Source: Nitrospirota bacterium (lineage in GTDB: Bacteria > Nitrospinota_A > UBA7883 > JACRGQ01). Taken from it: a DNA stretch of 60,823 bases. Positions 4,609-43,448 of the stretch are shown one piece after another. The position numbers were made by a program, and so were the translations under genes. Position 1 is the first letter of the stretch, and every line of letters starts with the position of its first letter. The stretch lies in the NCBI GenBank assembly GCA_024275955.1, contig JAJRYD010000037.1, positions 1 through 60,823 on the forward strand, read 5' to 3'. The notes under the pieces were generated by a model. The model saw nothing but the letters and a program-made list of their open reading frames with translations. It had not been told where the DNA came from and did no database searches.

Positions 4609-4892
4609 CTATGCCTCCATGTTAAGGCTGTCGAGTTTACCACAAGGGAGCTGGATGGGGGAAATTTAGGGGGAAAGGCACGACATTAAGCTACTAATTG
4701 TAGCGAAAAACCTCTTTAAGGGCCCTTTTGCATGCTTTAGGAGTCTAAATAGCTTCAAACAGCTTATTTTTAGCATATGCAAAATGGTGTACCAAATTTT
4801 CAACCAGTTTAAAGCTTTCAAAAGCCCTTGATTAAGGCTCAAAAACAGTCGCGCCGCCTGCGGGCTCCCGCTATACGGAAAAAACCTCTTTT

Positions 4893-5021
4893 GGGACTGT
4901 TTTCAAAAGAGTTTTTTGAGCATTTTAAGGAGAAGTTCATTTTCTTACTTCTTAAAAATAGAGCCTTTATCGGTTGGTAATTTTAAACAAAATCAAATTT
5001 ATCGCATTTGGCAACAGACCC
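4893..5021 (+). mobile_element. 130-bp inverted-repeat element, copy A
   Basis: A 129-bp element starting GGGACTGTT and ending AACAGACCC, so the ends are inverted repeats. It is flanked on both sides by CTTTT (4888-4892 and 5022-5026), a perfect 5-bp target duplication. A central imperfect palindrome (GAAGT...ACTTC) is conserved with the other copies. It holds no ORF and so is non-autonomous (MITE-like). Confidence 0.85.
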
Positions 5022-5110
5022 CTTTTTTTGAAAAAAAGCCTAAAGGTTGTTTCCAGAAATTCCGAAAAGGTGTTAAGCGGTGTGATAGATAGAAAAAAGT
5101 TTCACGTCTG

Positions 5111-5143
5111 TTTTTAAAGCATTCAAAAACAATGCTTTAAAAA
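5111..5143. repeat. Perfect 13-bp inverted repeat
   Basis: TTTTTAAAGCATT and its exact complement AATGCTTTAAAAA are separated by the 7-base loop CAAAAAC. The stem ends in an A run on the plus strand and a T run on the minus strand, so it could act as a bidirectional weak terminator or insulate flgM. Confidence 0.6.
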
Positions 5144-5164
5144 GAAAAGGATTTAGCTAGAAAT

Positions 5165-5191
5165 TAAGGATTTCTGCTAGAATGCCGAAGA
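5165..5191 (+). promoter_or_regulatory. Sigma-28 (FliA)-like promoter of flgM
   Basis: TAAG (5165-5168), a 15-base spacer, then GCCGAAGA (5184-5191) matches the FliA consensus TAAA-N15-GCCGATAA closely. It lies about 60 bp upstream of flgM, whose expression is often driven by sigma-28. Two imperfect copies of GGATTTNNGCTAGAA (from 5149 and 5168) overlap it. Confidence 0.5.
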
Positions 5192-5252
5192 GATAGATAA
5201 GCGTGAAAGAGCATATTATTACGGGTGTTGAAGTTGAACAGGAGGTGGAACG

Positions 5253-5576
5253 ATGAAGATTTTCGGATCTGACCCCGATTACCTCAAAAAGAATCGGGTG
5301 GGAGACTCTGGAAAAGCTAGGAGTACGGAAGCCAAATCTGCCGAGGCGGCAAAGGCGAAATTGGCTGGCGAATCTACGCAGGTTAGCGGCGAGAAGATTG
5401 CCGTATCTGACTTGGGTAAGGAGATAGCCAAAGTAAACTCCGAGGTTAAAGCTTCTCCCGATATTCGTACCGAAAAAGTTGCCGAGATAAAAGAACGGGT
5501 AGACAGCGGCGAATATCATGTACCGGCAGACAAAATTGCCGGAAAGATTATAGAAGATATAATCAAGATGGGCTGA
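5253..5576 (+). CDS. flgM: Anti-sigma-28 factor FlgM
   Basis: A 107-residue hydrophilic, largely disordered protein. The C-terminal half (residues 65-105) carries the FlgM signature: KASPDIRTEKVAEIKERVD, then SGEYHVPADKIAGKII. FlgM binds the flagellar sigma factor FliA until the hook-basal body is complete and FlgM is exported. A strong ribosome site (GGAGGTGG at 5241) lies four bases before ATG 5253. No other flagellar genes are nearby, so flgM is a lone gene here. The alanine- and lysine-rich N-terminal half is typical of the family in Deltaproteobacteria. Confidence 0.85.
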   Translation: MKIFGSDPDYLKKNRVGDSGKARSTEAKSAEAAKAKLAGESTQVSGEKIAVSDLGKEIAKVNSEVKASPDIRTEKVAEIKERVDSGEYHVPADKIAGKIIEDIIKMG

Positions 5577-5619
5577 CTTGGCCTACCGAGATGGTAACGC
5601 TACTCGGTTGGCGTAAGTC
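5575..5619. terminator. Long hairpin between convergent flgM and 5647 genes
   Basis: GACTTGGCCTACCGAG pairs with CTCGGTTGGCGTAAGTC across a 12-base loop, starting at the last codons of flgM. There is no T tract, so it is either a factor-dependent terminator or an RNA-stabilising hairpin shared by the convergent transcripts. Confidence 0.4.
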
Positions 5620-5646
5620 GGTCTGTCCAACTTCTACGGTATCCTC

Positions 5647-6201
5647 TTACTTTATTTCCTCTTTTAAAACCGCATCTGGTTTTTTCTGGTATCGGTTCGC
5701 CTTGTAGTAATCATTAATAAAATAGTTGACCATTCTGCTCACTTGGCGCTCTACACCTTTTGGGAAATCTGGCCCAGGAGTTACATTAAAAGAGCCAAGC
5801 ATCCATATAGTCCCTTTACGAAGCTCGTAGCGGGTACGGATAACATTAAGGTTGTATATGTTAAGGTCAACAGCGTATACTTCCTGCGCATTTTCCCCCT
5901 CTACCAGATTTACATTAACGTTGATTTTTGAAAGCGGGGATATATCGAGATCATCGACTATTTTTATACCTTTGGTCATCAACTGTGTTTCCACCGCAGT
6001 CTTAACGCTTTCGGGGGTTAGCATCCCGTCCTGTGGGAACGGTTCCACCACGACGACGAACTGGTTTGGAAGCCCCCTTAGGTTTTCCTGCTTTATAGTT
6101 AAATGCCCTGCGTCGCCTATAACTGTGCCTTCCATAGCAAAAAGATTCACCGGCAAAAATAAAGCAGAGACGGCAATCAGAGCGATAAATTTTTTTCTCA
6201 T
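5647..6201 (-). CDS. Secreted protein of unknown function
   Basis: A 184-residue protein with a clear signal peptide (MRKKFIALIAVSALFLPVNLFA, cleavage expected after the last Ala). The start at 6201 is chosen because it places the signal peptide at the N-terminus and has AAAGGA eight bases upstream; the longer frame to 6258 would bury it. The mature part is mostly beta strand and amphipathic helix, with a VVVVEPFPQDG segment, paired INVNVNL and YAVDLNIYNL strands, and a lysine-rich tail. I do not recognise a family. It is probably periplasmic or outer-membrane associated. Transcribed convergently with flgM. Confidence 0.6.
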   Translation of the reverse strand: MRKKFIALIAVSALFLPVNLFAMEGTVIGDAGHLTIKQENLRGLPNQFVVVVEPFPQDGMLTPESVKTAVETQLMTKGIKIVDDLDISPLSKINVNVNLVEGENAQEVYAVDLNIYNLNVIRTRYELRKGTIWMLGSFNVTPGPDFPKGVERQVSRMVNYFINDYYKANRYQKKPDAVLKEEIK

Positions 6202-6352
6202 AATATTTGTCCTTTCCATAGCTTCGTCAATTGTAACTCCCTGAATGGAAAAGGACAAAGCGATATTTAATCTAAAGCGAAGAAAAAACGAAAATAGCTA
6301 TTAAAACCACCGCTTGAAGCTTTGTTTCGTTAGCTAAAAACCAGCTTGCCGG

Positions 6353-6361
6353 TGCTATAAT
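6353..6361 (+). promoter_or_regulatory. Extended -10 promoter of cstA
   Basis: TGCTATAAT at 6353-6361 is a perfect TATAAT hexamer with an extended -10 TGn, about 46 bp before the cstA start. No good -35 box is seen at the usual distance, as expected for extended -10 promoters. Confidence 0.5.
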
Positions 6362-6406
6362 CGCACTCTACGTTAACCAAACAGTCTTTTAAAATAGAGG
6401 AAACTG

Positions 6407-8062
6407 ATGAATGCCGCTCTCATACTCGCGGTTTCGATAGTTCTGTTTCTTGTCGCCTACCGCACATACGGCAGTTATGTCGCTAAGGTGGTTGGGCTTA
6501 GCGATAGCAACCAGACACCAGCCCACAGGCTGAATGACGGGCTGGACTATCTGCCAGCTCCACTGCCGGTGGTTATGGGACATCACTTCGCCACAATCGC
6601 CGGAGCCGGTCCTATTGTCGGGCCGATACTTGCCATCTATTTCGGCTGGCTTCCGGCGCTGGTATGGATTCTTTTCGGCGCTGTATTCCTCGGCGCGGTA
6701 CACGACTTTCTCTCTCTCGTAGCCTCAATGCGGAACGACGGCCGTTCGATAGGCTCGATAATAGAACAGTACATAGGCAAAACCGGCAAAAGGCTCTTCA
6801 TACTATTTTCCTTTCCGGCGCTTGTGCTGGTTATCGCGGTTTTTATGGATGTAGTGGTTAAAACCTTTGTCAGCCAGCCATCGGTAGGAACAGCATCTAT
6901 ACTGTTTGTAATTCTGGCGCTTGGGTTTGGCATCGCTAGAAACAGATTCGGCGTATCACTAGTACCGGCAACCATTGTCGGCGTAGTAATGATGGCAATC
7001 TGCGTATCGACAGGCGTAGCTTTCCCGCTTATTCTCTCAAAAACTGTATGGCTGGCAATAGTTACCAGTTATATTTTTCTAGCGGCAGTAGCTCCGGTCT
7101 CATGGCTGTTACAGCCGAGAGACTATTTAAATTCCTATCTTCTCTGGGCGGTAATGCTGATGGCTCTGCTTGGCATATTCACGTTCCACCCCGATATGCG
7201 TATGCCGGCGGTAACTTCGTTTAATGTTGATGGGCGCTACATGTTTCCAATTTTATTCGTAACCGTCGCGTGCGGAGCGATATCCGGCTTTCATTCGCTG
7301 GCCGCCTCCGGTACCACCTCCAAACAGGTAAACATGGAAACAGACGCAAAGCTGATAGGCTACGGCTCAATGCTGATAGAAGGCATCCTTGCGGTAGTTG
7401 CGCTTATATCTGTCGCCTATCTCGCGCCTTCCGCTTACGAAAGCATTAAAGACAGCGGGCCTATTACGATATTCGCAAGCGGTGTAGGCACCTTCGCATC
7501 AAAAATCGGCATACCTATGGAGACAGGAATAATTTTTGCCGCGATGGCTATATCATCGTTCGCGCTTACCACTCTCGACTCATGCGTCCGGCTGGCACGT
7601 TACGCCTTTCAGGAGTTCTTTAGCTCCAACGCCGCAGAACTAGAGAAATACCCTATAGTAAAAAACAGGCTAACCGGCACAGCTATAGCTACAGCGGGCG
7701 GACTACTGCTAGCTTTAAGCGGCGGGGCTAAGTTTTTATGGCCCCTGTTCGGCTCCGCAAACCAGCTACTCGGAGCGTTGGCGCTTCTCGCCGTAGCGGT
7801 CTGGCTGGAAAAAACCGGCCGAGAATCGCTTTTTGTCAAAATTCCTATGGCTCTGATGTTTGCGGTATCGCTTACCGCGCTTGCGTTCCTGATAGAAGAA
7901 AACCTCGCAAACAAAAACTACGCCCTCACACTGCTGGCAACGGCACTATTCGGGCTAGGCGTCTCTCTGGCTGTTCAGGCCTACACAAGCCTCAACAACT
8001 TCAAGAGAGGAAAAACAATTCCAATTTCCGACAGCCCCGAATCTGATAGAAGCCGACCATAA
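6407..8062 (+). CDS. cstA: CstA-family carbon-starvation / pyruvate-peptide carrier
   Basis: A 551-residue integral membrane protein with about 14-16 hydrophobic segments. Family hallmarks are an N-terminal YRTYGSYVAKVVGL, DYLPAPLPVVMGHHFATIAGAGPIVGP, FGAVFLGAVHDFLSL, PRDYLNSYLLW and a SGFHSLAASGTTSKQ loop. CstA relatives move pyruvate or peptides across the inner membrane, and the family is shared with BtsT. The protein is shorter than the roughly 700-residue E. coli CstA and belongs to the short form found in anaerobes. AGAGGAA lies a few bases before ATG 6407. A monocistronic unit with the downstream STAS gene 157 bp away. Confidence 0.88.
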   Translation: MNAALILAVSIVLFLVAYRTYGSYVAKVVGLSDSNQTPAHRLNDGLDYLPAPLPVVMGHHFATIAGAGPIVGPILAIYFGWLPALVWILFGAVFLGAVHDFLSLVASMRNDGRSIGSIIEQYIGKTGKRLFILFSFPALVLVIAVFMDVVVKTFVSQPSVGTASILFVILALGFGIARNRFGVSLVPATIVGVVMMAICVSTGVAFPLILSKTVWLAIVTSYIFLAAVAPVSWLLQPRDYLNSYLLWAVMLMALLGIFTFHPDMRMPAVTSFNVDGRYMFPILFVTVACGAISGFHSLAASGTTSKQVNMETDAKLIGYGSMLIEGILAVVALISVAYLAPSAYESIKDSGPITIFASGVGTFASKIGIPMETGIIFAAMAISSFALTTLDSCVRLARYAFQEFFSSNAAELEKYPIVKNRLTGTAIATAGGLLLALSGGAKFLWPLFGSANQLLGALALLAVAVWLEKTGRESLFVKIPMALMFAVSLTALAFLIEENLANKNYALTLLATALFGLGVSLAVQAYTSLNNFKRGKTIPISDSPESDRSRP

Positions 8063-8585: not shown

Positions 8586-9656
8586 TCAAGCAATGCCCCA
8601 ATAATTGCTCTTTAGGTCTAAATAACCTCTTTCTTTTTGGAAATCATGAAAATCATTATTACCTACTGACGGGAACTCATTTTTAATTTCTTTCGATAAT
8701 TCTGATAAAACAACATCACCAATAGTATCTGAATATTTTCCTCTAAGTGCTTTTTCGTACCATTCCCCTAGTTCTTCTACTGTAATAATTGACTGAATTC
8801 TGTCTCGCCAGCCTATTTGTGTTAACAGTGAATCAATGACTCGTTCCTCTGCACATTTACAAACGATCACTATTTTATGTGCTGCTATTGAAGTAACTAT
8901 ATTTTCTGCCATAGCCACATCTAGCGACAAATGCTTTACCTGAACGATAGAACCAAAATTCGCAAACATATCAAGACCTCTATCAGCTGCATTGGTAACA
9001 CCTACCCGATAAAAATGCGCGTCTAAAGTTTTCCTGCTATCACTAACAGAAAGATTAAGAACCTTCTCAGCAAACACACTAAACTCATCAATTATCAGCT
9101 TGTTTTTATCTTCATAATAAATATCTACTTTTATATCTATTGCACGAATTACAGACTCAAATAGCGCGTAGACTACTATCTCAAAGACCTTATCAAGGCT
9201 TCGTTTTAGGCCTGGCTGACTCCAAAACTGGTCTAGAAACTCATTTAACAGAAATGTTTCTTTAGCACTAGCTAAGCAGTAGTTCAGTGCACTTTCTAAT
9301 TGTAAATGCTTATCTCCAAAAGACTTATAAATGTATGCCTCAACTATTCCATTGCGCTTCCGGTTCTCTTTGCCAAGTTCGGCAAGAGTTGCTGGGTTAA
9401 TCGCATTATCTTCAAATAGATTATCTTGGAACTTTGCACTTGAGGTACTTACCCTTTCAAGGAATTGCATGCACACAATATCGCGCCATTTTTTTGATTT
9501 TGTTCTATATGTTTCTAGTTTTTTTAGGTTCAATTTACTCTCAGAACCCGTTCGGTCACGATTCAATATCTCAGCAATTTGAATTGGCTTGTAAAGGTGT
9601 ACCCTTGATTTGTCTATAACTGAATCTAATGATTTTCTGGCTTCATCAATATTCAC
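8586..9656 (-). CDS. HaeII-family type II restriction endonuclease
   Basis: A 356-residue protein. Its N-terminus (residues 1-35: DEARKSLDSVIDKSRVHLYKPIQIAEILNRDRTG) closely resembles the HaeII/NgoBI restriction enzymes, which cut RGCGCY and have about 350 residues. A likely catalytic region lies near the IIDEF and SIVQVKHLS segments. It follows the methyltransferase gene with a 4-bp overlap, the standard arrangement for a coupled restriction-modification pair. Base composition is clearly A+T-richer than in neighbouring genes, which suggests recent acquisition. Family assignment is from memory of the HaeII group; recognition specificity is inferred. Confidence 0.75.
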   Translation of the reverse strand: MNIDEARKSLDSVIDKSRVHLYKPIQIAEILNRDRTGSESKLNLKKLETYRTKSKKWRDIVCMQFLERVSTSSAKFQDNLFEDNAINPATLAELGKENRKRNGIVEAYIYKSFGDKHLQLESALNYCLASAKETFLLNEFLDQFWSQPGLKRSLDKVFEIVVYALFESVIRAIDIKVDIYYEDKNKLIIDEFSVFAEKVLNLSVSDSRKTLDAHFYRVGVTNAADRGLDMFANFGSIVQVKHLSLDVAMAENIVTSIAAHKIVIVCKCAEERVIDSLLTQIGWRDRIQSIITVEELGEWYEKALRGKYSDTIGDVVLSELSKEIKNEFPSVGNNDFHDFQKERGYLDLKSNYWGIA

Positions 9657-10636
9657 ACTCTTGCTCCACGCTCAAGCCCAACCAAGAAAGGTTGCTTATA
9701 GACAGCCCTTTTCTTTTTATGCTCTATTGCCTCCTTCATAGCTTTTGCTATTTCTTTGATTACCGGCACGGACACACTATTTCCAGCCTGTTTTCTAAGC
9801 TGCGTATATGGAACGACAATTTTGAAATCTTCAGGAAAGCCTTGTAGCCTTAAAAGCTCTCTTGCAGTTGGTCGACGAACACCGTTTACGAGTAAATAGT
9901 TATATGAAGCACCCGCGCGAAGAGCACAAGAAAACTCTAACGCTGAAATATTTCCGCTTTTATTTTCATGCCACATAGAAGGAAAAGGTGGCACACCTTT
10001 TACTTTCTTAATTCGATTCTTTTGTATTTTGTCAGATACCCAGTACTTACTTTCAACCGCTTCATCATTCTCCAAAATATCAGATAGGCTTTTTCTTTTT
10101 AGCATTGGGTTGGGAAATTTGAACTCTAAATCATCTCTAAACCCAACAATAAAAGCTCTTTCCCTCTTGTGTGGTAGGCCATAATTTAGTGTGTTCAGTA
10201 CTTCATGATGCGTGTGATAACCAAGAGCCTCAAGATGTTCAATTATTATCTCAAATGTCCTGCCACCATCATGTGATTTCAAGCTTTTGACATTTTCAAG
10301 TAAAAAAGCATACGGCCTTTTCACCTTCAATATTTCTTCAATGTTAAAGAATAATGTACCCCTCGTATCAGAGAACCCCTTCCTGTCTCCGCAAATGCTA
10401 AATGCCTGACATGGAAAACCACCTAGCAGTATATCGTGGTCAGGAATGCTACTAGGCTCAACTTTTGTAATATCACCATCCGGCACTTCTCCAAAGTTTG
10501 CCTCATATGTCAACTGTGCAGATTTGTCCCACTCAGAGGAATATACGCATCTTCCACCGATACTCTCAAATCCTAGGCGTATGCCCCCCATACCAGAGAA
10601 CAAGTCGATAAATTTAAAATTATTCATATTTTCCAT
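9653..10636 (-). CDS. DNA cytosine-5 methyltransferase (HaeII-like system)
   Basis: A 327-residue m5C methyltransferase with the canonical motifs in order: I (DLFSGMGG, residues 11-18), IV (GGFPCQAFS, catalytic Cys76), VI (ENV, 114-116), VIII (HKRERAFIVG), a target-recognition region near 195-250, then IX (RELLRLQGFP) and X (QAGNSVSVPV). It methylates the recognition site of the nuclease encoded immediately downstream, protecting host DNA. Two ATGs (10636 and 10627) are possible starts. A+T-rich upstream sequence and gene body mark the pair as a horizontally acquired island between a STAS gene and a response-regulator gene. Confidence 0.88.
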   Translation of the reverse strand: MENMNNFKFIDLFSGMGGIRLGFESIGGRCVYSSEWDKSAQLTYEANFGEVPDGDITKVEPSSIPDHDILLGGFPCQAFSICGDRKGFSDTRGTLFFNIEEILKVKRPYAFLLENVKSLKSHDGGRTFEIIIEHLEALGYHTHHEVLNTLNYGLPHKRERAFIVGFRDDLEFKFPNPMLKRKSLSDILENDEAVESKYWVSDKIQKNRIKKVKGVPPFPSMWHENKSGNISALEFSCALRAGASYNYLLVNGVRRPTARELLRLQGFPEDFKIVVPYTQLRKQAGNSVSVPVIKEIAKAMKEAIEHKKKRAVYKQPFLVGLERGARV

Positions 10637-10871: not shown

Positions 10872-11771
10872 TCAAAGCAGGTATCGCTTCCCTTTTACTC
10901 TGGCCCGTATCTCGTTGCCCTTACCTATGTACTCAAGAGAATCAAAGCTCATACTATTGGCCATGGCGATACCTCTCCCATGACTGTCGAAAGCGCGGTC
11001 GGGTGAAAACTCGAGATACTTTTCCCAGTCGAAACCGTTTCCCTCGTCCTTTATGCGAAACTCTACATAAGCATTAAACTTTTTAAACTCGAGAGTTCCA
11101 ACCTTTGAGAAGTTTTCAGGAAGTTTTACCCTCCTATTAACCTCATCTCGCCATTGGTTCTTTGTGTTCAAGACGCTTTTCTCGTTATATGTAATTCCCA
11201 GATTGCCGTGCTCTATCGCGTTAATCATCAGCTCTGAAAGGCCAAGCACCAAATCTTTCGGCTTTGAACCTAACTGCGACATAAGCATCGAAAGCCTGTC
11301 CGCCTCATCCAGTGTTCTAAACATAAACGAACCTTCTTTCATCAGCACTATTGATGAAAGCGCTCTGGATGTTTCTTCATTAAGCGATTTGTATTTTTTG
11401 TAGTCGGCAATAGCCGCTCCAACTATTATAAGAAGTGTGTCGTGGCCGTATGGCTTAGTAAGATAGTAGTATGCTCCGGCCTTTAGTCCCTCACGTATCT
11501 CTTTATCCGAGTCTCTCGCTGTCTGCATTATTACAGGCATCGTTTTAAGCGTTTCATGCTTTTTAATATGAATAAGCACATCTATACCATCCATACCGGG
11601 CATCGTCCTATCCAGCAATACAACGGAATATCTCTGCGGATTATCTTCCAACATTTTCAAAGCCTGAGCGCCATCTTCGGCCATTTCGACAAAATAACCA
11701 GCAGGCTCAAGATGACCGCGAAGCGACAGCCTAGCAACCCTAGAATCATCGACAACAAGAATTTTATTCAC
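10872..11771 (-). CDS. Response regulator with a serine-kinase-type HATPase output domain
   Basis: A 299-residue fusion. Residues 1-125 form a receiver domain (VVDDSR acidic pocket, phosphoacceptor in LLDRTMPGMDG, KPYG lysine). A linker helix leads to a GHKL ATPase of the RsbW/SpoIIAB class (roughly 170-295) with the N-box ELMINAIEHGN, a DEGNGFDW G1 box and an HGRGIAM G2 box. The family phosphorylates STAS antagonists or binds sigma factors; here phosphorylation of the receiver would gate that activity. The phosphatase gene at 12088 is on the same strand upstream, separated by 316 bp holding a repeat element. Cytoplasmic. A missing histidine-kinase H-box argues against a classical hybrid kinase. 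Confidence 0.82.
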   Translation of the reverse strand: MNKILVVDDSRVARLSLRGHLEPAGYFVEMAEDGAQALKMLEDNPQRYSVVLLDRTMPGMDGIDVLIHIKKHETLKTMPVIMQTARDSDKEIREGLKAGAYYYLTKPYGHDTLLIIVGAAIADYKKYKSLNEETSRALSSIVLMKEGSFMFRTLDEADRLSMLMSQLGSKPKDLVLGLSELMINAIEHGNLGITYNEKSVLNTKNQWRDEVNRRVKLPENFSKVGTLEFKKFNAYVEFRIKDEGNGFDWEKYLEFSPDRAFDSHGRGIAMANSMSFDSLEYIGKGNEIRARVKGKRYLL

Positions 11772-12087: not shown

Positions 12088-13254
12088 CTATTTAGAAGAA
12101 ACCTCCAATAGTTCTATCCCAACGATTGTTATGTCGTCCTCGGAATCGTTCATTCCCAGATGGGGGTCTATCGTGTTTCCACTTGCGTCTCCCATCTCTT
12201 GTAAAACATTTCCTATAAGTTCCGAAACGCTAGAGCCGGAATAGGCCGATACGATGCCGCGCAAATCTTCCAGACCGAAGCTTTCATCCTTGAAAGCCAT
12301 CATTTCAAAAAGTCCATCAGTATAGAAAACAAGTTTGTCACCCGTTTGCAGTTGGAGATGCCCAATGGAGATATCGGCATCTTCAAAAAGAACCAACGGC
12401 ATGCCATGCCCCTTAGTTCCAGCTACCGGCAGGGCCGAAACAGCTCCGTCTCTTACATGAAAGAACTGCGGATGACCATTGCATGAGTAATGGAACATAA
12501 GCGTTTCATGGTCTATCTCACCGCTTATAGAAGTGAAATACTCTCCATCGCCAAAGATGCTGGAGCCGCACAGCCTTTTATTAAGTTCGTTTATGGAACT
12601 TTCTAACCCAACACCTGTTTGGGAAATTATCGAATTATGAACTATGTCGGTAGCTATACTGCGTAAAAGACACGGCACAGAATGCCCCGACTGATCTTTA
12701 ACGCTTATCACAGTTTTCCCTTTACTACCGTTAGCCGCCGGCATCTCCTTGATAAAATAATGATCCCCTCCCTCTTCCGCGCACGGCATAGATACGGCAA
12801 AAGTGGAAAGCTTATTACCGTTTCCAATATCTATACGACTGGGAGCCTCTCCGTTAATAACGTCTAATATCCCTTTGGCGCCTTTTACATCAAGCCTTAA
12901 GGAATCGGCGTAATCGTTAAGCTGGGAGACAAGCTGTGTAAGCTCTACCGATTTTAAACGCTCAAGCTCTTCCACTCTTTGACGTTCCGCTATATTCGTA
13001 ACAAGCGGGTTAAAAAGAAAAAAGTAGAGAACCGGACATACCGTTATAACCAGAAGAAACGCGTCAACAACCCCTTCCAATACCGGATGAAGGGGCGGAA
13101 AAAGGGAAAACAGAAACATTATCAGCCCTTCCGCTATAAAAATGGAAAGGGCGATAATGAGCAATAGCCGAGCGGGACCCATCTTGAAAGAAGCTTGCTT
13201 AAACCCGCCGCTAAGCTCTTGTTTTCCCTCTAGTCCGCTACTATCACTATGCAA
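12088..13254 (-). CDS. Membrane-bound PP2C-type (SpoIIE/RsbU-like) phosphatase
   Basis: A 388-residue protein. Two transmembrane segments (about 28-50 and 60-85), a short coiled-coil linker (ERQRVEELERLKSV), then a PPM phosphatase domain from about 140 to the end. Metal-binding aspartates are seen in GGDHY, VKDQSGH, FYTDGLFEM and DDITIVGIEL. RsbU relatives dephosphorylate STAS antagonists and so release a sigma factor or other target. The glycine after the GH pair in the usual DxxGHG motif is serine here. Upstream of and co-oriented with the receiver-HATPase gene, it is a plausible opponent of that kinase domain. Sensing is probably through the membrane segment, since there is almost no periplasmic loop. 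Confidence 0.78.
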   Translation of the reverse strand: MHSDSSGLEGKQELSGGFKQASFKMGPARLLLIIALSIFIAEGLIMFLFSLFPPLHPVLEGVVDAFLLVITVCPVLYFFLFNPLVTNIAERQRVEELERLKSVELTQLVSQLNDYADSLRLDVKGAKGILDVINGEAPSRIDIGNGNKLSTFAVSMPCAEEGGDHYFIKEMPAANGSKGKTVISVKDQSGHSVPCLLRSIATDIVHNSIISQTGVGLESSINELNKRLCGSSIFGDGEYFTSISGEIDHETLMFHYSCNGHPQFFHVRDGAVSALPVAGTKGHGMPLVLFEDADISIGHLQLQTGDKLVFYTDGLFEMMAFKDESFGLEDLRGIVSAYSGSSVSELIGNVLQEMGDASGNTIDPHLGMNDSEDDITIVGIELLEVSSK

Positions 13255-13387: not shown

Positions 13388-14773
13388 CTACTGCCGATAA
13401 AAAATAACAGGAACGACAAATTCAAAATGCCTGCCAATAAGCAGTTTCCATTCGGCAAACGAGGCAGGAAAAGTAGATATTATCCCTATATCAACTTTAG
13501 GAATCTGTCGAAGATTGTCAACAGCGTAAACTTTTTTTCCAGTAAAACTGCCTGCCTCCCTGCCGATAAAAAACATTACTTTAAAGCCACTGTTTTCAAG
13601 AAAGCATGCAAGCTGTTCGGCATTTCGCCCAGTGCCGGCAATCGCGACACTTGCCCCACGCTTACGCATATTTCTTTTAAACTCAACAGGGGTCGGAAAG
13701 CTTTCTTCCCATTTATTATCGTAAACTACTATCTGCGGTTTAAACAGTTTTTCGGCAATCTTTCGTTTTCTTACTTTTAAAAACCTTTCACCAACAGTTT
13801 TCATAACACTCTCTTCGCCAAAAGGTTCTAGGTTTACAGGTTCAAACTTCGGGTGTTTCAACGCCTCTTTCATCGCGAGGGAAAGATCACTGCCGGATGG
13901 CTCTGCCCATCTGTCTCCCGCCATAAAATAGCAGTCAAGCGCTTCCGGCGCTGGAATTTTTTTCAGCTTATATTTTAAAAGCCTGCTGTTGCGCCGGTTA
14001 AGAAAATCAAGCTGACCGCCAAAGCCTGTAGCGATTACCGGCAGTCCAGATGAGACCGCCTCAAGGTACGGCCTGCCGAAACCTTCACCCCTAGTAGGGA
14101 GCAGATAACAGTCTGCCGAGTGATAGAGCTTTCGCATCTGCGGTGTTGAAGGGCGCTTACCGCGCACTTTGATGTTCCCCACGGGGGCGCCTTTCTCTAA
14201 GCTTTTAAGTATTCCTCTCAGCTTTCGCGCAGAGGAGGCGGAGCATTGCACCACCCACTCAACATCCTCTCTACCGCCAAACGTAAAGACAAACTCCTCC
14301 AGCATAATGTCCCACCCTTTTCGAAGGCTCAAATCAAGAAAAACCGAAAGAAATCTAAACGGCCCGTTCCTCGCTATTTTTCTCTCCGGCGGTTTAAAGT
14401 CTCTGCCTGCCATATCGGGGACTACAAAAATTCTTTTTTTATTAACGCCGCCTTTGGCGAAAGTTTTTAAATTGAATTTCGAAGCGACCCACACCTCGTC
14501 CATCCTGTTCATAATATCTGCCCAAAGCCTCGGCACAGAGTCGGACTCAAGCATCACCCTCCCTATATTCACCGCAGTTTTATCTATCCGAAAAAGGTGG
14601 GGAAACCCAAAATGCACAACTACGTCGAAACCGGAAACCTTGGCCTTTTTATCAAGCCCGTCTTTTATGGAAACGCGGTAGCCATAACGCTTAAGGCTTT
14701 TGGCAAATTCCATAAGACCATAGCCGTAACCGGAAAATTTAGGCCTGTACGAACATAAGCAGACCGATTTCAC
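13388..14773 (-). CDS. Glycosyltransferase (GT-B fold) with an extra C-terminal Rossmann-like domain
   Basis: A 461-residue protein. The first 330 residues form a GT-B glycosyltransferase: an FGFPHLF region, RMDEVWVASKFN in the N-lobe, and in the C-lobe LPTRGEGFGRPYLEAVSSGLPVIATGFGGQ, the GT4-type nucleotide-sugar site with its conserved Glu. Residues about 365-461 form a second nucleotide-binding-like domain (VAIAGTGRNAEQLACFLENSG) not usual in this family. The start overlaps the stop of the radical SAM gene by 4 bp. It is the last gene of a four-gene minus-strand operon, so it probably adds a sugar to the product shaped by its partners. Cytoplasmic or membrane-peripheral. Substrate unknown. 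Confidence 0.78.
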   Translation of the reverse strand: MKSVCLCSYRPKFSGYGYGLMEFAKSLKRYGYRVSIKDGLDKKAKVSGFDVVVHFGFPHLFRIDKTAVNIGRVMLESDSVPRLWADIMNRMDEVWVASKFNLKTFAKGGVNKKRIFVVPDMAGRDFKPPERKIARNGPFRFLSVFLDLSLRKGWDIMLEEFVFTFGGREDVEWVVQCSASSARKLRGILKSLEKGAPVGNIKVRGKRPSTPQMRKLYHSADCYLLPTRGEGFGRPYLEAVSSGLPVIATGFGGQLDFLNRRNSRLLKYKLKKIPAPEALDCYFMAGDRWAEPSGSDLSLAMKEALKHPKFEPVNLEPFGEESVMKTVGERFLKVRKRKIAEKLFKPQIVVYDNKWEESFPTPVEFKRNMRKRGASVAIAGTGRNAEQLACFLENSGFKVMFFIGREAGSFTGKKVYAVDNLRQIPKVDIGIISTFPASFAEWKLLIGRHFEFVVPVIFYRQ

Positions 14774-16539
14774 GAGGAAACACCAGAGCTGAACTTCTCC
14801 GGCTGAATAACCTTGCCGCCGATGTCAACCCCCATAACATTGGCCGAAAGCCTTTTCGCGAGTGATAGAACCCCAGAGTAGCCTGACAAATCCTCACTAT
14901 TATGATTTACCTGCACTATCACAAGGTCGGCCCTAAAGTTTTTAAGAGAAGTAAATGTCTCCGATGAAAGCGTGCCTTTATTAAGGCTCCCCTCTCCAAA
15001 AGTGAAAACATTTTCACCGGCGAAACTTCTCCGCAACTGCTCCCTAATAAGAAGATAAACCATTTTAGCAGAGCCGAACTCCGCGAGCAGTTTACCTGTC
15101 TGCCATTTTGGGCCGGAACCTATTACCAAAATTTTCCCAAAACCTTCTACCGCCATGCCGACGGATGAAAAATCGGCATTCCTAAAGCGGGTAGAACCGC
15201 CGTAAATAGAGGCAACCCTCCTTGCCTCTAAAACAACCTTTTCAATCTCATCCGCTAGGTAGCCGGAATAACTCTGCAAAACATTACGGCCGCCGTCAAA
15301 CTTTTTCCAGCTTTTATTCTCAAGAGAGCCAAGCTTGTTTGCATAGCTAAAAAATGGAGTGCCGGGCTGCGGAGTGCAGATAGATATCTGAAGATCGCAT
15401 AGAAGCTCCTTTTGCAGCAGTTCTTTTATAAGCTTGGTCGTGGCGCGGTCTTTTTCCGGCGTAGAGCCGGAAGCGCCGTATGTGAAAGTACCGTAGATTT
15501 TTATCCCTACATCTTTCGCCTCTTTCAACACGGAGCGAAGCCTTTTGATAGAGTGCGACTTGCCGATACTTTTCGCCACAGATTTATCTGCCGTTTCTAT
15601 CCCTACCCTTAGTTTGTAGTAGCCGGCTTTTTTCATCCATTCCAGCATCTCTCTATCTATATTCCAGTAACCGCACATCGCGTTATATTTCAGGCTGTCG
15701 AGATTTTTGGCGATTATCGATTTACAAAGTTCTACTATAAAATCTTTCCTCCCATTATGCAGTTCGTCGTCGAAAAAAATCCCTTCCATCTCATCGTATT
15801 TTTCCTTCATCGCTAATATCTCATCGGTAACATCATCTACATTGCGCGGCCGCCAACTGCCGGCGCCTCCGTAATAGATATTGGTAGCGACACAAAAATC
15901 GCAGGCAAGCGAACATCCCCTGCTCGCGAACAGTTCAAGCTCGCGGTACTCGTTTACCACAGGCTCTATGTAATCTATTCTTCTCACATCTTCGTCCTCG
16001 GGCCACGGCAGGCTGTTTGGGTCCAGCAACTCTCTTCGTCCATTAGGAAAAACCCCTTTTATGCCGGACGGCTCCGCCCCTTGCAAAAGCTCAAGAACGG
16101 CGTACTCGTACTCGCCTATACAAACGCAGTCGGCCCCTGCCTTCAAAACATCTTCTGGAAAAGCAGAAGGATGCTGGCCCGCAAAGACAATTCTGCATCC
16201 GGTTTTTTTCTTCACCTTCGAGGCAAGTTTGATATCGAGAGAAAATGAGAGAGTGGACGATTCCATAACAAGCATTTCCGGTTTTTCGGAGAGTATCTTT
16301 TCTAGGTATGTCTCGTGGTTCCAGTTATTCAGGTTGCCATCGAGAAACTTTATTTCGCAGTCGGTCTCCCGTTTTAAAAGAGCGGAGCAGTACGCCAGCA
16401 TAAACGGATAGAAGGTCATCCATCCCTTTTTATGATCGTACCACGAAGGTTCTTCCACTGCCGACCAGCGGGATGGGAAATGCACATACCTCTCACCATC
16501 AGGCCCGATACCTACCGAGTTCGCCAGTACCGTTTTCAC
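14770..16539 (-). CDS. Radical SAM protein with N-terminal B12-binding-like domain
   Basis: A 589-residue protein of the B12-binding radical SAM class. Residues 1-170 form a Rossmann domain ending in the typical AGADCVCIGEYEYAVLELL. The radical SAM core begins with the cluster motif CSLACDFC at about residue 210 and includes GIFFDDELHNG and KLRVGIETADKS. From about 430 there is an additional domain with GKILVIGSGPKWQTG. The usual base-off histidine motif (DxHxxG) is not evident, so B12 binding is uncertain. It overlaps both neighbours by 4 bp, so all three are co-translated. A role in methylating or rearranging a glycan or metabolite is inferred. Confidence 0.82.
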   Translation of the reverse strand: MKTVLANSVGIGPDGERYVHFPSRWSAVEEPSWYDHKKGWMTFYPFMLAYCSALLKRETDCEIKFLDGNLNNWNHETYLEKILSEKPEMLVMESSTLSFSLDIKLASKVKKKTGCRIVFAGQHPSAFPEDVLKAGADCVCIGEYEYAVLELLQGAEPSGIKGVFPNGRRELLDPNSLPWPEDEDVRRIDYIEPVVNEYRELELFASRGCSLACDFCVATNIYYGGAGSWRPRNVDDVTDEILAMKEKYDEMEGIFFDDELHNGRKDFIVELCKSIIAKNLDSLKYNAMCGYWNIDREMLEWMKKAGYYKLRVGIETADKSVAKSIGKSHSIKRLRSVLKEAKDVGIKIYGTFTYGASGSTPEKDRATTKLIKELLQKELLCDLQISICTPQPGTPFFSYANKLGSLENKSWKKFDGGRNVLQSYSGYLADEIEKVVLEARRVASIYGGSTRFRNADFSSVGMAVEGFGKILVIGSGPKWQTGKLLAEFGSAKMVYLLIREQLRRSFAGENVFTFGEGSLNKGTLSSETFTSLKNFRADLVIVQVNHNSEDLSGYSGVLSLAKRLSANVMGVDIGGKVIQPEKFSSGVSS

Positions 16540-17573
16540 TTTTTCTCCTTTTTCGGCTCAAGTTTAAATAGCATCTCTACCGCTTTTTTATTTTGGGGCA
16601 TCAGCGTTGTCGCGGTCTTCGCGCAGTCTAGCGCGAGTTCTTTTCTGCCCTGCTTTAAAAACACCTCCCCCATATGGAGGTAAGCAGATGCCACCCGTAT
16701 GTCATCCTTATTGCCGTCGGCATATATCGCCTCAAGATAATATTTCGACGCGTTACTATATCCGCCTACCTGTTGGAAGCAATAGGCCAAGTTGTAAAAA
16801 TTTTCAAAACTAGGGTCGGCTCCAGAGAGTTTTTTAAAAACAGGGAGCGCCTCTCTAAAGTAGTTCGTACTCAAAAGCATCTTGCCTAAATCTCTATCGC
16901 TCTTAATAGAAAAATTCTTTTTTATGTAATCGGTGCGCGCCCGCTCGCTCTCTTCCCTGCCTCTAGCGTCGACATGGTGTATCACCGTAGCTTTCGGACA
17001 AGTCTCTACCCTATATCCAAGGTCAAGCGCCCTATGACAGAAATCTACATCATCATGCTGGTAGTTTCTACGGTTCTCGTCAAACTTAACAGCCTTCCAT
17101 ACCTGCTTTTTTATCATCATAAAGTAGCCGCTTATATAGACATCGTGGTCGGTTTCGGTATAGTCAAGCAGTACCGGCCCTGCAAGCGGGTTCCCCCGCT
17201 CCATCTTCTGCCAGTCCCACCACCTGTCGCCGTTGCCGTCCAGCCCTTCGCACCCAAGTATATCGAAATTTTGCACCGCTCTGATGTTTCTCCACCAATC
17301 GGGTGTAAACTCCACATCGTCGTCGAGAATAATGATGGTATCGTACTGCGCTCCGGCGGCGTTAAAGTTACGCATTTTCGAAACTTCTGCCCTATCTGCC
17401 CAATGCGCTTTTTCTGTGTAGATAATGCCGGGGTCCGGCCTATGTCTACCGCAGACAAGTATCTCGTAGGAAGGAACAGACTGCGCCTTAATGCTCTTTA
17501 TAAGCGTGTCGATTCTGTCCGGCCTTTGCCCGCCGGTAATTATGCAAAACGATATTCCCTGTTTTTCACTCAT
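16536..17573 (-). CDS. Family 2 glycosyltransferase with C-terminal TPR repeats
   Basis: A 345-residue protein. Residues 1-235 are a GT-A glycosyltransferase: FCIITGGQRPDRIDTLIKSI start, an ILDDDVEF acidic (DxD) motif, and HDDVDFCHRALDLGYRV in the acceptor region. Residues about 245-340 contain three TPR-like helical repeats (FYNLAYCFQQVGGYSNASKYYLEAIY; VASAYLHMGEVFLKQGRKELAL), which likely mediate protein contacts. It overlaps the radical SAM gene by 4 bp. Inferred role: transfers a sugar in the same pathway, possibly as part of a complex held together by the TPRs. Confidence 0.8.
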   Translation of the reverse strand: MSEKQGISFCIITGGQRPDRIDTLIKSIKAQSVPSYEILVCGRHRPDPGIIYTEKAHWADRAEVSKMRNFNAAGAQYDTIIILDDDVEFTPDWWRNIRAVQNFDILGCEGLDGNGDRWWDWQKMERGNPLAGPVLLDYTETDHDVYISGYFMMIKKQVWKAVKFDENRRNYQHDDVDFCHRALDLGYRVETCPKATVIHHVDARGREESERARTDYIKKNFSIKSDRDLGKMLLSTNYFREALPVFKKLSGADPSFENFYNLAYCFQQVGGYSNASKYYLEAIYADGNKDDIRVASAYLHMGEVFLKQGRKELALDCAKTATTLMPQNKKAVEMLFKLEPKKEKK

Positions 17574-17708
17574 CTAAAAATTGATACCTCCACAGATGAA
17601 TATATCGGAACTTTTGCGCCAGACTGTACAGCCAAAGCGTATAAAACCGCCGCTACTGGTGCTTTTTGGTAATTATACAGCTCCCGCGATACTAGGCGAA
17701 CCTGCCTC

Positions 17709-19034
17709 TCACCTGCCGGAAACAGCCGCATGCCCCATAAGAAAAGAGTGATCCATATTCCCCTCTTCGTATCTCCACGCGCCGAACCTGCCTACGGAGC
17801 TTATACCGTTTGGCTTTAAATAGCTGTTTATCGTTTTAAGCGCGGCATCCCGCCCTAATGTCGGGATAGGATACAGATACGGCAAACGCTCCTGCCAAAC
17901 GGAAACTATCCGCTTTTTATCCATCTTTGTTATTATTCCGGCTGTTATCAGCCCGTCTATCGTCTGCCTTACCGCATCGTCCTTTGTCAGCTTTCTGTTT
18001 TTCCCCATCGAAACCTCGCAAAGAAGCGACGAAAAGGATCCCCCTTCAGGCAGATTGTTCGGCGAGTAGTTGGAAAAATATGTAACACGGTAAAATGGAA
18101 CCCTAGAGTCGGGAAAATATACCCAGCATCTGCCGTTAGTTTTAATCTTGCGGTCTATCCCTATGCCTACCATCCAGCCGGAATTTTTGCAAAGCGCGTC
18201 TGCCGCTTTTAAAACCTCTGTAGGAGGTTTATCAATTACCTTTTTTACAAGATGGTCCAGAGGCATGGTGGTGATAAGCTTTTTATAGCTTACAGACTCG
18301 CCGTTTGCGAAATGAATACGTTTCGCCACCGCGTCCAGCTTTACCGCCCTATGCTTAAACGAAATCTTTTCCTTAAACGGTTCGGCAATATTTTCAAAAA
18401 GCCCGCCTGTGCCTCCGTTTAGCGGAAAAATAAAACCGGCATTCGGCCCCCACGAAACAACATCCCTGCCTGTTTTTACCGCCTCCCTTACTTTGGCAAG
18501 GCTCGGCAGAGAAACACGGCCGTCTATCCAGCGATACCCCATTTTGTCTAACGGAAAAGCCCAAACCTTTCGGTTGTACGCAAGCATAAAATGCTCAGCA
18601 ATGCCAGAGCCTAGAGACACCTGTATCCATTCCTCGAAGTTATTCGGCCGAAAAGAGCCAAAGCCTTTAACAGCCCTTTCTATCCCCTCTAGGCATTCCC
18701 GCATCGCCCTTGCCGGTAGTCTATGGATATTATTCTGCAAAGGAAACGGTATAAACCGCTTACCTATCTTTATAAACGCCGCCCTTGTATGCTTTATCCC
18801 ACTGCCCCCAAGCGCGTCGTTTATCACTTTTTTAAAAAGTTTATCTTTGGTAAAGATGACATGCCCGCCGAGGTCCCAAGTGAAACCGTTTTTATCGAGC
18901 CTGCTGGAAGAAAGACCGCCGACCCTGTTAGTAGCCTCAAAAATACGCCAGCTTTTGCCTCTCGGCTTTAAAAGCCGATACCCAGCGCCAAGCCCCGCCG
19001 GGCCTGCCCCTATCACCGCGATATCAAGATTCAT
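17709..19034 (-). CDS. FAD-dependent amine-oxidase-type oxidoreductase
   Basis: A 441-residue protein with an N-terminal dinucleotide-binding motif (VIGAGPAGLGAGYRLL), an FEATNRVGGLSSS FAD-ribose motif and TWDLGGHVIF. These place it in the flavin amine-oxidase/protoporphyrinogen-oxidase-like superfamily, near UDP-galactopyranose mutase-type enzymes. The C-terminal RFGAWRYEEGNMDHSF resembles the isoalloxazine-binding end. It opens the minus-strand operon with the glycosyltransferases and radical SAM gene, 135 bp ahead of the second gene. Oxidation or mutase chemistry on a nucleotide sugar or glycan is inferred; a haem-pathway role is less likely in this setting. Confidence 0.72.
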   Translation of the reverse strand: MNLDIAVIGAGPAGLGAGYRLLKPRGKSWRIFEATNRVGGLSSSRLDKNGFTWDLGGHVIFTKDKLFKKVINDALGGSGIKHTRAAFIKIGKRFIPFPLQNNIHRLPARAMRECLEGIERAVKGFGSFRPNNFEEWIQVSLGSGIAEHFMLAYNRKVWAFPLDKMGYRWIDGRVSLPSLAKVREAVKTGRDVVSWGPNAGFIFPLNGGTGGLFENIAEPFKEKISFKHRAVKLDAVAKRIHFANGESVSYKKLITTMPLDHLVKKVIDKPPTEVLKAADALCKNSGWMVGIGIDRKIKTNGRCWVYFPDSRVPFYRVTYFSNYSPNNLPEGGSFSSLLCEVSMGKNRKLTKDDAVRQTIDGLITAGIITKMDKKRIVSVWQERLPYLYPIPTLGRDAALKTINSYLKPNGISSVGRFGAWRYEEGNMDHSFLMGHAAVSGR

Positions 19035-19236
19035 AGCCTGATACTTTAATAGGGCAGGCAGATTATTAATAGGTAAAACTTTAAAAGGGGTGGCCTTTCA
19101 TAAATCTCTATCCCTGCTTCCAAAGTGAAAAGAGGCATCGGCCTCTTGAACGCCGGAAGAGCGCACCCTTTAAGTATAAAACCGCCATTTTGGCAAAGGG
19201 CTTGGCTTTTCTCTGCCGATGCAATCTAATACCTGC

Positions 19237-20121
19237 ATGGAACGAAAAATAGGAATAGACCTCGGCGGTACGTCGATTTCGTTTATAGACCTCTATTCGC
19301 CCCAAAAGATAATAGACGAGAGAAGAATCGACACGCCATGCTCGGCAGGCGGTATCACCGAAGCTATAGTCAACGTGCTAAAAGATATGCTTCCACTCGT
19401 CGATGAAAAACCGGCCGGCATCGGCATAGCTGTAGCCGGTCAGGTGAACCCGATAGCGAAATCGGTAATATTTTCCCCAAACCTCCCGTTTAAGGAGGAG
19501 TTCCCACTTGGCGGTATCATCCATGAAAACCTTAATCTCCCTGTAGTGCTGGAAAACGACGCAAACTCTGCCGCTATAGGCGAAAAGGTTTTTGGGGCGG
19601 CAAAAGATATCGACGACTTTATAGTGCTAACACTCGGTACGGGGATAGGCTCCGGCATATTCGTAAACGGCAAACTACTGCGTGGACATACGCACGCTGG
19701 GGGCGAAGCTGGGCATATGGTTATCGACCCTACAGGCCCAAAATGCGGATGCGGACGCAACGGATGCCTAGAAGTCTTCGCTTCCGGTACGGCAATATCG
19801 CGCCGCGCCGCCAACGAAACCGGAGTAATGCTATCGGCAAAAGAGGTATGCGAATCGGCAAAAGACAATGAGAGACTACAGGAATTGCTAAAAGATGCCG
19901 GAGAAAAACTTGCCGAAGGCCTCGCATCGCTCGTAAGCATCTTTAACCCTGAGGCTATTTTCTTTGCCGGCTCGCTCGCCAACGCGCCAAAATATTACTT
20001 CGAGCCTGCGTTCAAGGTTGCCCGTTCAAAAGCGTTCGGCACTACGGGGACGAACCTGCGGCTTGAGATATCGGAGCTAAAGGAAAAGATAGGAATGCTT
20101 GGTGCCGCGGGGCTGGTGTAG
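19237..20121 (+). CDS. ROK-family sugar kinase
   Basis: A 294-residue ROK protein. The ATP motif IGIDLGGTSISF is at the N-terminus, the sugar-binding ENDANSAAIGE with its catalytic Asp is near 105, LGTGIGSGI follows, and the zinc motif CGCGRNGCLE is near 170. Relatives phosphorylate glucose, N-acetylglucosamine or related sugars. The absence of an N-terminal helix-turn-helix makes it a kinase, not a repressor. ATG 19237 is chosen because the protein then starts directly before the ATP motif; an ATG at 19219 adds six residues. Divergent from the glycan operon, with a 200-bp gap that must carry both promoters. Confidence 0.85.
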   Translation: MERKIGIDLGGTSISFIDLYSPQKIIDERRIDTPCSAGGITEAIVNVLKDMLPLVDEKPAGIGIAVAGQVNPIAKSVIFSPNLPFKEEFPLGGIIHENLNLPVVLENDANSAAIGEKVFGAAKDIDDFIVLTLGTGIGSGIFVNGKLLRGHTHAGGEAGHMVIDPTGPKCGCGRNGCLEVFASGTAISRRAANETGVMLSAKEVCESAKDNERLQELLKDAGEKLAEGLASLVSIFNPEAIFFAGSLANAPKYYFEPAFKVARSKAFGTTGTNLRLEISELKEKIGMLGAAGLV

Positions 20122-41220: not shown

Positions 41221-42156
41221 TTAGGAAGCGATAGAGCGGAAATATTCTATCGTTTTGTTCAGCCCTTCCTCAAGCGACCATTTTGGGTCGAAGCCAAGCA
41301 GTTCTTTTGCTTTGGTTATATCCGGCTTTCTCTGTTTGGGGTCGTCTCCCGGCATCGGCTCAAAAACTATTTCGCTTTTTGACCCAAGCATCTCTTTTAT
41401 CTGGGTAGCCATCTGCAAAATTGTCATCTCTTTAGGGTTTCCGATATTAACAGGAGTAGTTATGGAAGAAAACAAAAGCCTTACTATTCCTTCCACAAGG
41501 TCGTCTACATAGCAAAAGCTTCTGGTTTGCGAACCATCACCATAAACAGTTATCGGTTCGTTTTTAAGAGCCTGCATTATAAAATTCGGCACAGCTCTGC
41601 CGTCCATCACCCTCATTCTGGGGCCGAAAGTGTTAAAGATGCGGATTATTCGTGTGTCAACCCACCCCTGTTTCTGGTATGTGTGGGTAATCGCTTCGGA
41701 AAACCTTTTTGCTTCGTCGTAGCAGGAACGCGGGCCGACACTGTTTACGTTGCCCCAATAGCTTTCCGGCTGCGGCGATAGCTCTGGATCGCCGTATATT
41801 TCAGACGTGGAGGCCATAAAGAAAACCGCTTTCTTCGCCTTTGCAAGCTCAAGGCAGTTGTAAGTGCCAAACGATCCTACCTTGAGAGTTTCAAGCGGAT
41901 GCTTGGAATAGTCGACAGGACTTGCCGGAGAAGCAAAGTTAAGAACATAATCAAGCGCCCCTCTATGCTCCAGCTTTTTGCTTATATCCTGTTTGACAAA
42001 TCTGAACTTAGGCTCGTTTTCAAGATGCTTTATGTTGGAACCATCCGAGCAGATAAGATTATCGACAGCTATAACGCTATGCCCGTCGGCTATAAGCGTA
42101 TCGGCAATATGCGAGCCAAGAAAACCTGCGGCACCGGTTATCAGGATTTCGGCCAT
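41221..42156 (-). CDS. UDP-glucuronate decarboxylase (UDP-xylose synthase)-like epimerase
   Basis: A 311-residue short-chain dehydrogenase-type protein: NAD motif [16 protein letters not shown], the [16 protein letters not shown]-type substrate region ([10 protein letters not shown]), [20 protein letters not shown] with the catalytic YxxxK, and a C-terminal [19 protein letters not shown]. The pattern matches Uxs, which converts UDP-glucuronate to UDP-xylose. It overlaps the ugd gene by 16 bp, which supports the UDP-Glc to UDP-GlcA to UDP-Xyl sequence. A closely related epimerase activity cannot be excluded. No dedicated xylosyltransferase is nearby. Confidence 0.85.
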
Positions 42157-43448
42157 TCGCCCCTCCCCATACTATAATACTCAAATCCAAGCCTTCTCTT
42201 TCTAGCCGGATCGTAGAGATTACGCCCGTCAAAAATAACAGGGATATTCATCGCCTCTTTAATCTTTTCAAGATTGAGAAACTTAAATTCCCGCCATTCC
42301 GTTATCAAAAGCATTGCATCAGCGCCTTCACAAGCCTCGTACGAGCTGTTGCAGCAGGTAACGTCGGGCAGAATCGCCTTGGTAGCCTCCATAGCGATAG
42401 GGTCGAACGCCTTTACCGTGGCACCCTCTTTTTCCAACGCCTCTATTATCTCTATCGACTTTGCCTCGCGCATATCATCGGTGTTCGGTTTAAACGCAAG
42501 GCCTAAAACCGCGAACACCTTACCTTTCATATCGGGGAAACGCGCCTTTATCATATCTACAAAATGTGATGCTCTACGCTCGTTGGTATCGACCACATTT
42601 TTTAATAAAGAAAACTCGTTCCCAAGCCCGGACGAGGTATGTATAAGCGACTTAACATCTTTAGGAAAGCAGGAACCGCCGTACCCAAGCCCCGCGTTTA
42701 AAAAGCTTCTTCCTATTCTCTGGTCGTGTCCCATACCTTTCGCGACCTGCTCCACATCGGCACCGACCTTTTCGCAAATATCGGCAATCGAATTGATGAA
42801 AGAAATTTTGGTCGCTAAAAAAGCGTTGGAAGCGTACTTGATTATCTCCGCCGAGTTCACATCGGTTATAAGTATCGGCGCTTCAAGCGATGCGTAAAGC
42901 TCTAAAAGCCTAAAAGCTACTTGGCGCTTAGACGCGCCTATCACTATTCTGTCGGGGTTGAGCGCGTCATGTATAGCGGAGCCTTCCCGCAAAAACTCGG
43001 GGTTGGAGACAACATGATAGTCGTAGTTATTCGGGTTGTTCTCACTCACTATGTTGTGAACGAGGTCGCCCGTACCTACAGGCACGGTACTTTTGTTTAC
43101 GATTATCTTATCGCCGTTCATATGCTTGGCAACTTCTTTAGCCGCCGCCTTTACAAACGATAAATCTGTCTCACCGTCGTCTTTTGGCGGCGTGTTTACG
43201 CAGATAAAAATTATTTCGGAATTTTCAACCGCGTTTTTGATGTCGGTAGTAAAGGAGAGGCGGCCTTCGTTGCGGTTTCTTACTACAAGCTCTTCCAAGC
43301 CAGGCTCGTAAATCGGCATCTTGCCGTTTTCCAGCATTGCGATTTTTTCAGAGAGCTTATCCACGCAGATGACATCGTTGCCAAGTTCGGCAAAAACCGT
43401 TCCAGTAACAAGACCAACGTAACCGGTACCGATAATGCAAATATTCAT
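42141..43448 (-). CDS. ugd: UDP-glucose 6-dehydrogenase
   Basis: A 435-residue UDP-glucose/GDP-mannose dehydrogenase. NAD motif [38 protein letters not shown], the catalytic Cys in [16 protein letters not shown] at about 260, and [21 protein letters not shown]. It oxidises UDP-glucose to UDP-glucuronate, the substrate of the next gene. Eight bases separate it from fmt upstream. Confidence 0.92.

Follow-up and report, generated by a model that had tools for sequence, protein, structure and literature searches.

A conserved operon joining a predicted eukaryotic-type UDP-galactopyranose mutase, two glycosyltransferases and a B12-type radical SAM protein in a Nitrospirota bacterium

What could a bacterium build with two glycosyltransferases, a B12-type radical SAM protein and a flavoprotein encoded side by side, and on which sugar would the radical enzyme act? 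The question arises from a contig of a Nitrospirota bacterium (JAJRYD010000037.1, assembly GCA_024275955.1), whose 60,823 nucleotides, the whole stretch of DNA analysed here, are called the window below. In the ORF list of the window, four long ORFs, all on the minus strand, fill positions 13388-19034 (Table 1). The initial annotation of this region described a glycan operon of four genes with 4-bp overlaps among the last three, and the extent and overlaps it gave proved exact to the base; as it also stated, no recognised export or polymerase gene lies within the operon.

Table 1. Genes and junctions of the operon, in transcription order (window coordinates; rSAM, radical SAM)
Feature	Position	Strand	Remarks
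Predicted UDP-galactopyranose mutase (UGM), eukaryotic-type	19034..17709	-	441 aa; gene 1; FAD fold
Gap between mutase and GT-A	17574..17708	-	135 bp; GGAGG-type ribosome binding site ahead of the GT-A ATG
GT-A glycosyltransferase + TPR	17573..16536	-	345 aa; gene 2
GT-A/rSAM stop/start overlap	16536..16539	-	4 bp, GTGA
B12-type rSAM protein	16539..14770	-	589 aa; gene 3
rSAM/GT-B stop/start overlap	14770..14773	-	4 bp, GTGA
GT-B glycosyltransferase	14773..13388	-	461 aa; gene 4

This arrangement is not due to chance, since orthologues with 48-63% identity stand in the same order in other genomes and the 4-bp GT-A/rSAM overlap is kept. The conserved reading frames being those of the minus strand, we took the small plus-strand ORFs that overlap them to be spurious. 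The GC content of the four genes (46-48%) equals the window composition and thus gives no sign of recent import. Around the operon, we observed a ROK-family sugar kinase gene (19219-20121), divergent from the mutase and also adjoining it in G002 and G008; just downstream and on the same strand, a signalling pair of partner-switching-like type, namely a SpoIIE-type phosphatase (12088-13254) and a HATPase-domain response regulator (10872-11771); a compact restriction-modification pair (8586-10636) in which a HaeII-type restriction endonuclease (Pfam E 5e-135) overlaps a C5 cytosine methyltransferase; and a second nucleotide-sugar pair (41221-43448), where a UDP-glucose/GDP-mannose dehydrogenase gene overlaps that of an NAD-dependent epimerase/dehydratase.

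The product of the first gene had been called an FAD oxidoreductase. The FAD fold stands, with Pfam matches to Amino_oxidase/NAD_binding_8; the net oxidoreductase does not. In a phmmer search of all solved structures, the protein matches the UGM of T. cruzi (4DSG) with E=5.6e-101, and a profile search matches the same structure with E=6e-124, over residues 5-439. It is homologous over its full length to both 4DSG and the A. fumigatus enzyme (3UTE), whereas a typical bacterial UGM (1I8T) is a weak match (E 7.5e-5). Global alignment with the T. cruzi enzyme gives 44% identity, and the ten residues of a published UGM active-site list (PMC4192007) are all identical: His62, Val63, Arg176, Asn201 and Tyr317 of T. 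cruzi correspond to H58, V59, R173, N198 and Y306, and Arg327, Tyr395, Arg423, Tyr429 and Asn433 to R316, Y388, R416, Y422 and N426. Judged by its sequence, the FAD gene is a eukaryotic-type UDP-galactopyranose mutase, a ring-contracting isomerase; its predicted product is UDP-galactofuranose or a near analogue, the case being strong at the sequence level and the activity itself deduced from it. With such an isomerase as its first gene, the operon most likely both provides UDP-galactofuranose and consumes it. UDP-galactose could be supplied by galE, which scores above its cut-off elsewhere in the genome. The mutase differs from the eukaryotic UGMs in being bacterial and in being encoded alongside a radical SAM enzyme in one operon. 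Among unrelated bacteria, a minority encode relatives at 40-43% identity; more distant ones, at 30-36%, are on plasmids and, where annotated, are only called FAD-dependent oxidoreductases.

The two glycosyltransferases belong to different families. GT-A is a family 2 enzyme (Pfam Glycos_transf_2) with a DDD motif at aa 84-86, followed by C-terminal TPR repeats (aa ~258-328; Pfam TPR_12 and alignment). GT-B is a family 4 enzyme, as indicated by Pfam (Glyco_trans_1_4/Glycos_transf_1) and by the GT4 enzymes that it matches in PDB searches by profile and by fold; its AlphaFold model is poor in its central part (mean pLDDT 72), so the fold match was used for the GT4 call only. It ends in a Rossmann-like domain (aa ~370-461) that resembles CoA_binding below the Pfam cut-off. 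Solved structures gave no clue to the donor specificity of either enzyme, the matches being generic TPR and GT4 ones only.

In the radical SAM protein, a B12-binding domain (aa 44-151) precedes a radical SAM domain (aa ~206-362; Pfam and alignment), PF02310 and PF04055 both scoring above their cut-offs. The initial reading of a glycan operon that includes a B12-type radical SAM enzyme is supported. The CX3CX2C cluster motif is at aa 209-216, and C209, C213 and C216 are invariant in 16 aligned relatives, as are many further core residues. The protein continues into an extra Rossmann-like domain (aa ~445-589 by alignment; AlphaFold pLDDT 85.5), for which Pfam gave nothing over cut-off. Neither this domain nor the C-terminal one of GT-B nor the TPR repeats of GT-A figure in the initial annotation. 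In a maximum-likelihood tree of 41 sequences, drawn without those of HpnJ, AprD4, GenK and GenD1, it falls in a fully supported 27-member clade with a long stem, apart from which the HpnJ-like protein of its own genome branches. The clade also spans Omnitrophota, CSSED10-310, Lindowbacteria, Auribacterota and a Deltaproteobacterium. At most loci examined, a glycosyltransferase gene adjoins the radical SAM gene or is one gene off; such neighbours were seen in Omnitrophota, CSSED10-310, Lindowbacteria, the Deltaproteobacterium and at a paralogue locus of the same genome. With the tools we used, the clade appears to have no identifiable characterised member.

Other radical SAM genes of the family were also noted. 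At the paralogue locus just mentioned (L050, 6995-9637, on contig C23 of G000), glycosyltransferase genes lie on both sides of a gene for an 880-aa fusion of the radical SAM protein with TPR repeats and a class I methyltransferase domain; G005 and G008 have paralogues of about the same length (880-884 aa). In four family genomes (G008, G005 on C100, G009 on C83 and G010 on C84), a few hundred bases separate a flagellin gene from a different B12-type radical SAM gene; in L075 (contig C40 of G008, 4840-7429), the latter is directly upstream, with fliD downstream.

What the radical enzyme does has to be approached through its characterised relatives. Its best curated profile is HpnJ (TIGR03471), matched by all 16 members compared; the window protein scores 151.7 bits against a cut-off of 577.6. 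HpnJ catalyses the final step towards bacteriohopanetetrol cyclitol ether, a glycosyltransferase and a deacetylase having acted before it (PMC12583986). The similarity spans aa 43-436 and so takes in the B12-binding region and the radical SAM core, and the setting is alike in that the sugar on which HpnJ acts is added by a glycosyltransferase of the same gene set (PMC12583986); the differences are the extra C-terminal domain and the neighbours, which here are UGM, GT2 and GT4, with no HpnI/HpnK and no deacetylase. That the gene is HpnJ itself was rejected, the score being far under the cut-off and the most HpnJ-like gene of the genome being elsewhere (C6, 369 bits). Among solved structures, the top relative by both profile and fold is AprD4 (6FD2), the radical SAM 1,2-diol dehydratase of apramycin biosynthesis, which acts on a sugar (PMC5461906). 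This fold match (TM 0.60 by query, 17% identity) is partly expected of any B12-type radical SAM enzyme; the AprD4 profile NF033070 gives only 37.4 bits for a cut-off of 500, the substrate of AprD4 is an aminoglycoside, and no gene for a reductase like its partner AprD3 was found in the operon.

The initial annotation had envisaged a C-methylated or rearranged sugar. Rearrangement is supported by way of the predicted mutase (pyranose to furanose); C-methylation is not supported. GenK and GenD1, the class B radical SAM C-methylases of gentamicin sugars (PMC5461906), resemble our protein as B12-type radical SAM proteins modifying sugars, but no specific similarity to them was found: they are absent among the NCBIfam families that match it, and the fold search gave other methylases, below AprD4. 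The radical enzyme could still be a class B C-methylase, placing a methyl group from methylcobalamin on a sugar carbon to give a branched or C-methyl sugar: it has the B12-binding domain, the methylases TsrM and MgmA rank closely behind AprD4 in the fold list and, with cobalamin-bound OxsB, match at E 1e-12 to 1e-17, and elsewhere in the genome a MetH-like protein (below the metH cut-off) hints that cobalamin may be used. Neither HpnJ nor AprD4 is a methylase, however, and the classical DxHxxG motif is absent, as it is from many B12 radical SAM enzymes; we regard methylation as unlikely. Since the two nearest characterised enzymes both act on sugars and neither methylates, the guess, over large distances, tilts the other way: by analogy, a deoxygenation or dehydration (AprD4-like) or a rearrangement (HpnJ-like) would be a better guess for the radical step than C-methylation.

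Gene order across genomes bears on which of the four parts belong together. We used a family set of 11 genomes and a phylum set of 24. The radical SAM orthologue is found in 8/11 family genomes (61-66% identity in the seven others), and UGM-GT-A-rSAM-GT-B occur in the same order and strand in six, that of the window included, so that the neighbourhood conservation which the initial annotation proposed to look for is indeed present. The exact 4-bp GT-A/rSAM overlap is kept in six other family genomes (it is seen at loci L035-L040, L042 and L071). At the phylum scale, 13 of the 14 genomes with the radical SAM gene have the GT-A orthologue versus none of the ten without (p=6e-6, Fisher test ignoring kinship); the two genes are adjacent in 11 genomes; in G003 they are on different contigs, and in G011 45 kb lie between them. 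Other families have the pair without mutase and GT-B, and its neighbours vary there: in G012 and G020 an HldE-like gene, in G019 both a MocA-hexapeptide fusion and a methyltransferase, in G018 a flagellin gene. From these different sugar genes beside the pair, we infer that GT-A and the radical SAM protein form a core that various genes have joined: the pair is the older core, to which this family has added mutase and GT-B. The radical enzyme thus need not act on galactofuranose itself, and, as other families of the class have the pair without a close mutase, the link between mutase and radical chemistry is not obligatory.

One may then ask whether the mutase is just an independent neighbour of a functional unit made of GT-A, rSAM and GT-B only. 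It is separated from GT-A by 135 bp here and by 89-492 bp in the five relatives with the full order, so that it may be transcribed separately; it was not found in G004 (82% complete), where GT-A-rSAM-GT-B is present, and it is on another contig in G003, where the cassette is broken over contigs. Yet it stands directly upstream on the same strand in the six genomes with the full order, and 7/8 family genomes with the radical SAM gene have it versus 0/3 without (p=0.02 in a Fisher test on a small sample, ignoring kinship), which leaves independence improbable in our opinion.

We lean, with some confidence, towards a cytoplasmic glycan-assembly cassette joining UDP-galactofuranose supply, sugar transfer, radical alteration of a sugar and a further GT-B sugar. 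The mutase would convert UDP-galactopyranose to UDP-galactofuranose; one of the two glycosyltransferases, perhaps the TPR-bearing GT-A given its place in the conserved core, would move a sugar onto an acceptor, the TPR repeats possibly being a docking site for the acceptor or a partner. The radical SAM protein would then change a C-H or C-O bond in a sugar of the growing glycan, GT-B would attach a further sugar, and the end product would be a glycan (surface sugar) carrying galactofuranose.

Two acceptors come into consideration for this cassette. The first is flagellin, which the TPR repeats would dock, GT-A beginning a glycan for the radical SAM enzyme to modify. In G018 (L046), GT-A and rSAM have a flagellin gene upstream of them on their own strand, flagellin matches were found in 14/14 phylum genomes with the radical SAM gene versus 4/9 class genomes without (p=0.004, ignoring kinship), and the TPR repeats match protein O-GlcNAc transferases, among others. 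These TPR matches are generic, however, and the 4/9 count may come from a loss or two within one family; flagellin is adjacent at that single locus among the loci read and is not in the window, the flagellin genes of this genome being on other contigs and the nearest window genes not being flagellar. We hold flagellin glycosylation to be quite unlikely. The second is a lipopolysaccharide or glycolipid headgroup, decorated in the manner of HpnI-HpnK-HpnJ on hopanoids, which is doubtful but deserves consideration: HpnJ is both the best curated profile and the last enzyme of a glycosyltransferase/deacetylase/radical SAM route (PMC12583986), the core pair has HldE-like genes beside it in G012 and G020, and the paralogous radical SAM gene at L050 is accompanied by a heptosyltransferase-like gene of the GT9 family and by an ABC transporter. 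Against it, none of the four genes predicts a lipid-linked step, the operon lacks an HpnI/HpnK-type deacetylase, and no LPS gene was found among the annotated window genes. Between flagellin and a lipid-linked glycan, the evidence favours neither.

The boldest reading would make the 27-member clade a new class of radical enzymes that edit glycans by rebuilding the carbon skeleton of a sugar already transferred (into a carbocycle or a deoxysugar), in this family on a galactofuranose-containing glycan; we consider it very unlikely and offer it as speculation. The parts are of known kinds for a glycan tailoring cassette; their combination and the radical SAM clade appear uncharacterised. Our literature search on UGM with radical SAM, flagellin glycosylation with radical SAM, and cobalamin radical SAM with polysaccharides, which left most subscription journals outside, returned nothing relevant.

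The conserved gene set ties the radical SAM clade to a UDP-galactofuranose donor pathway and a TPR-bearing glycosyltransferase; with such a specific donor pathway, the search for a substrate narrows from any metabolite to a few glycans. Bacterial annotations of "FAD-dependent oxidoreductase" can moreover hide homologues of the eukaryotic-type mutase, here with a complete active site, and such homologues bear on the prediction of galactofuranose in bacteria.
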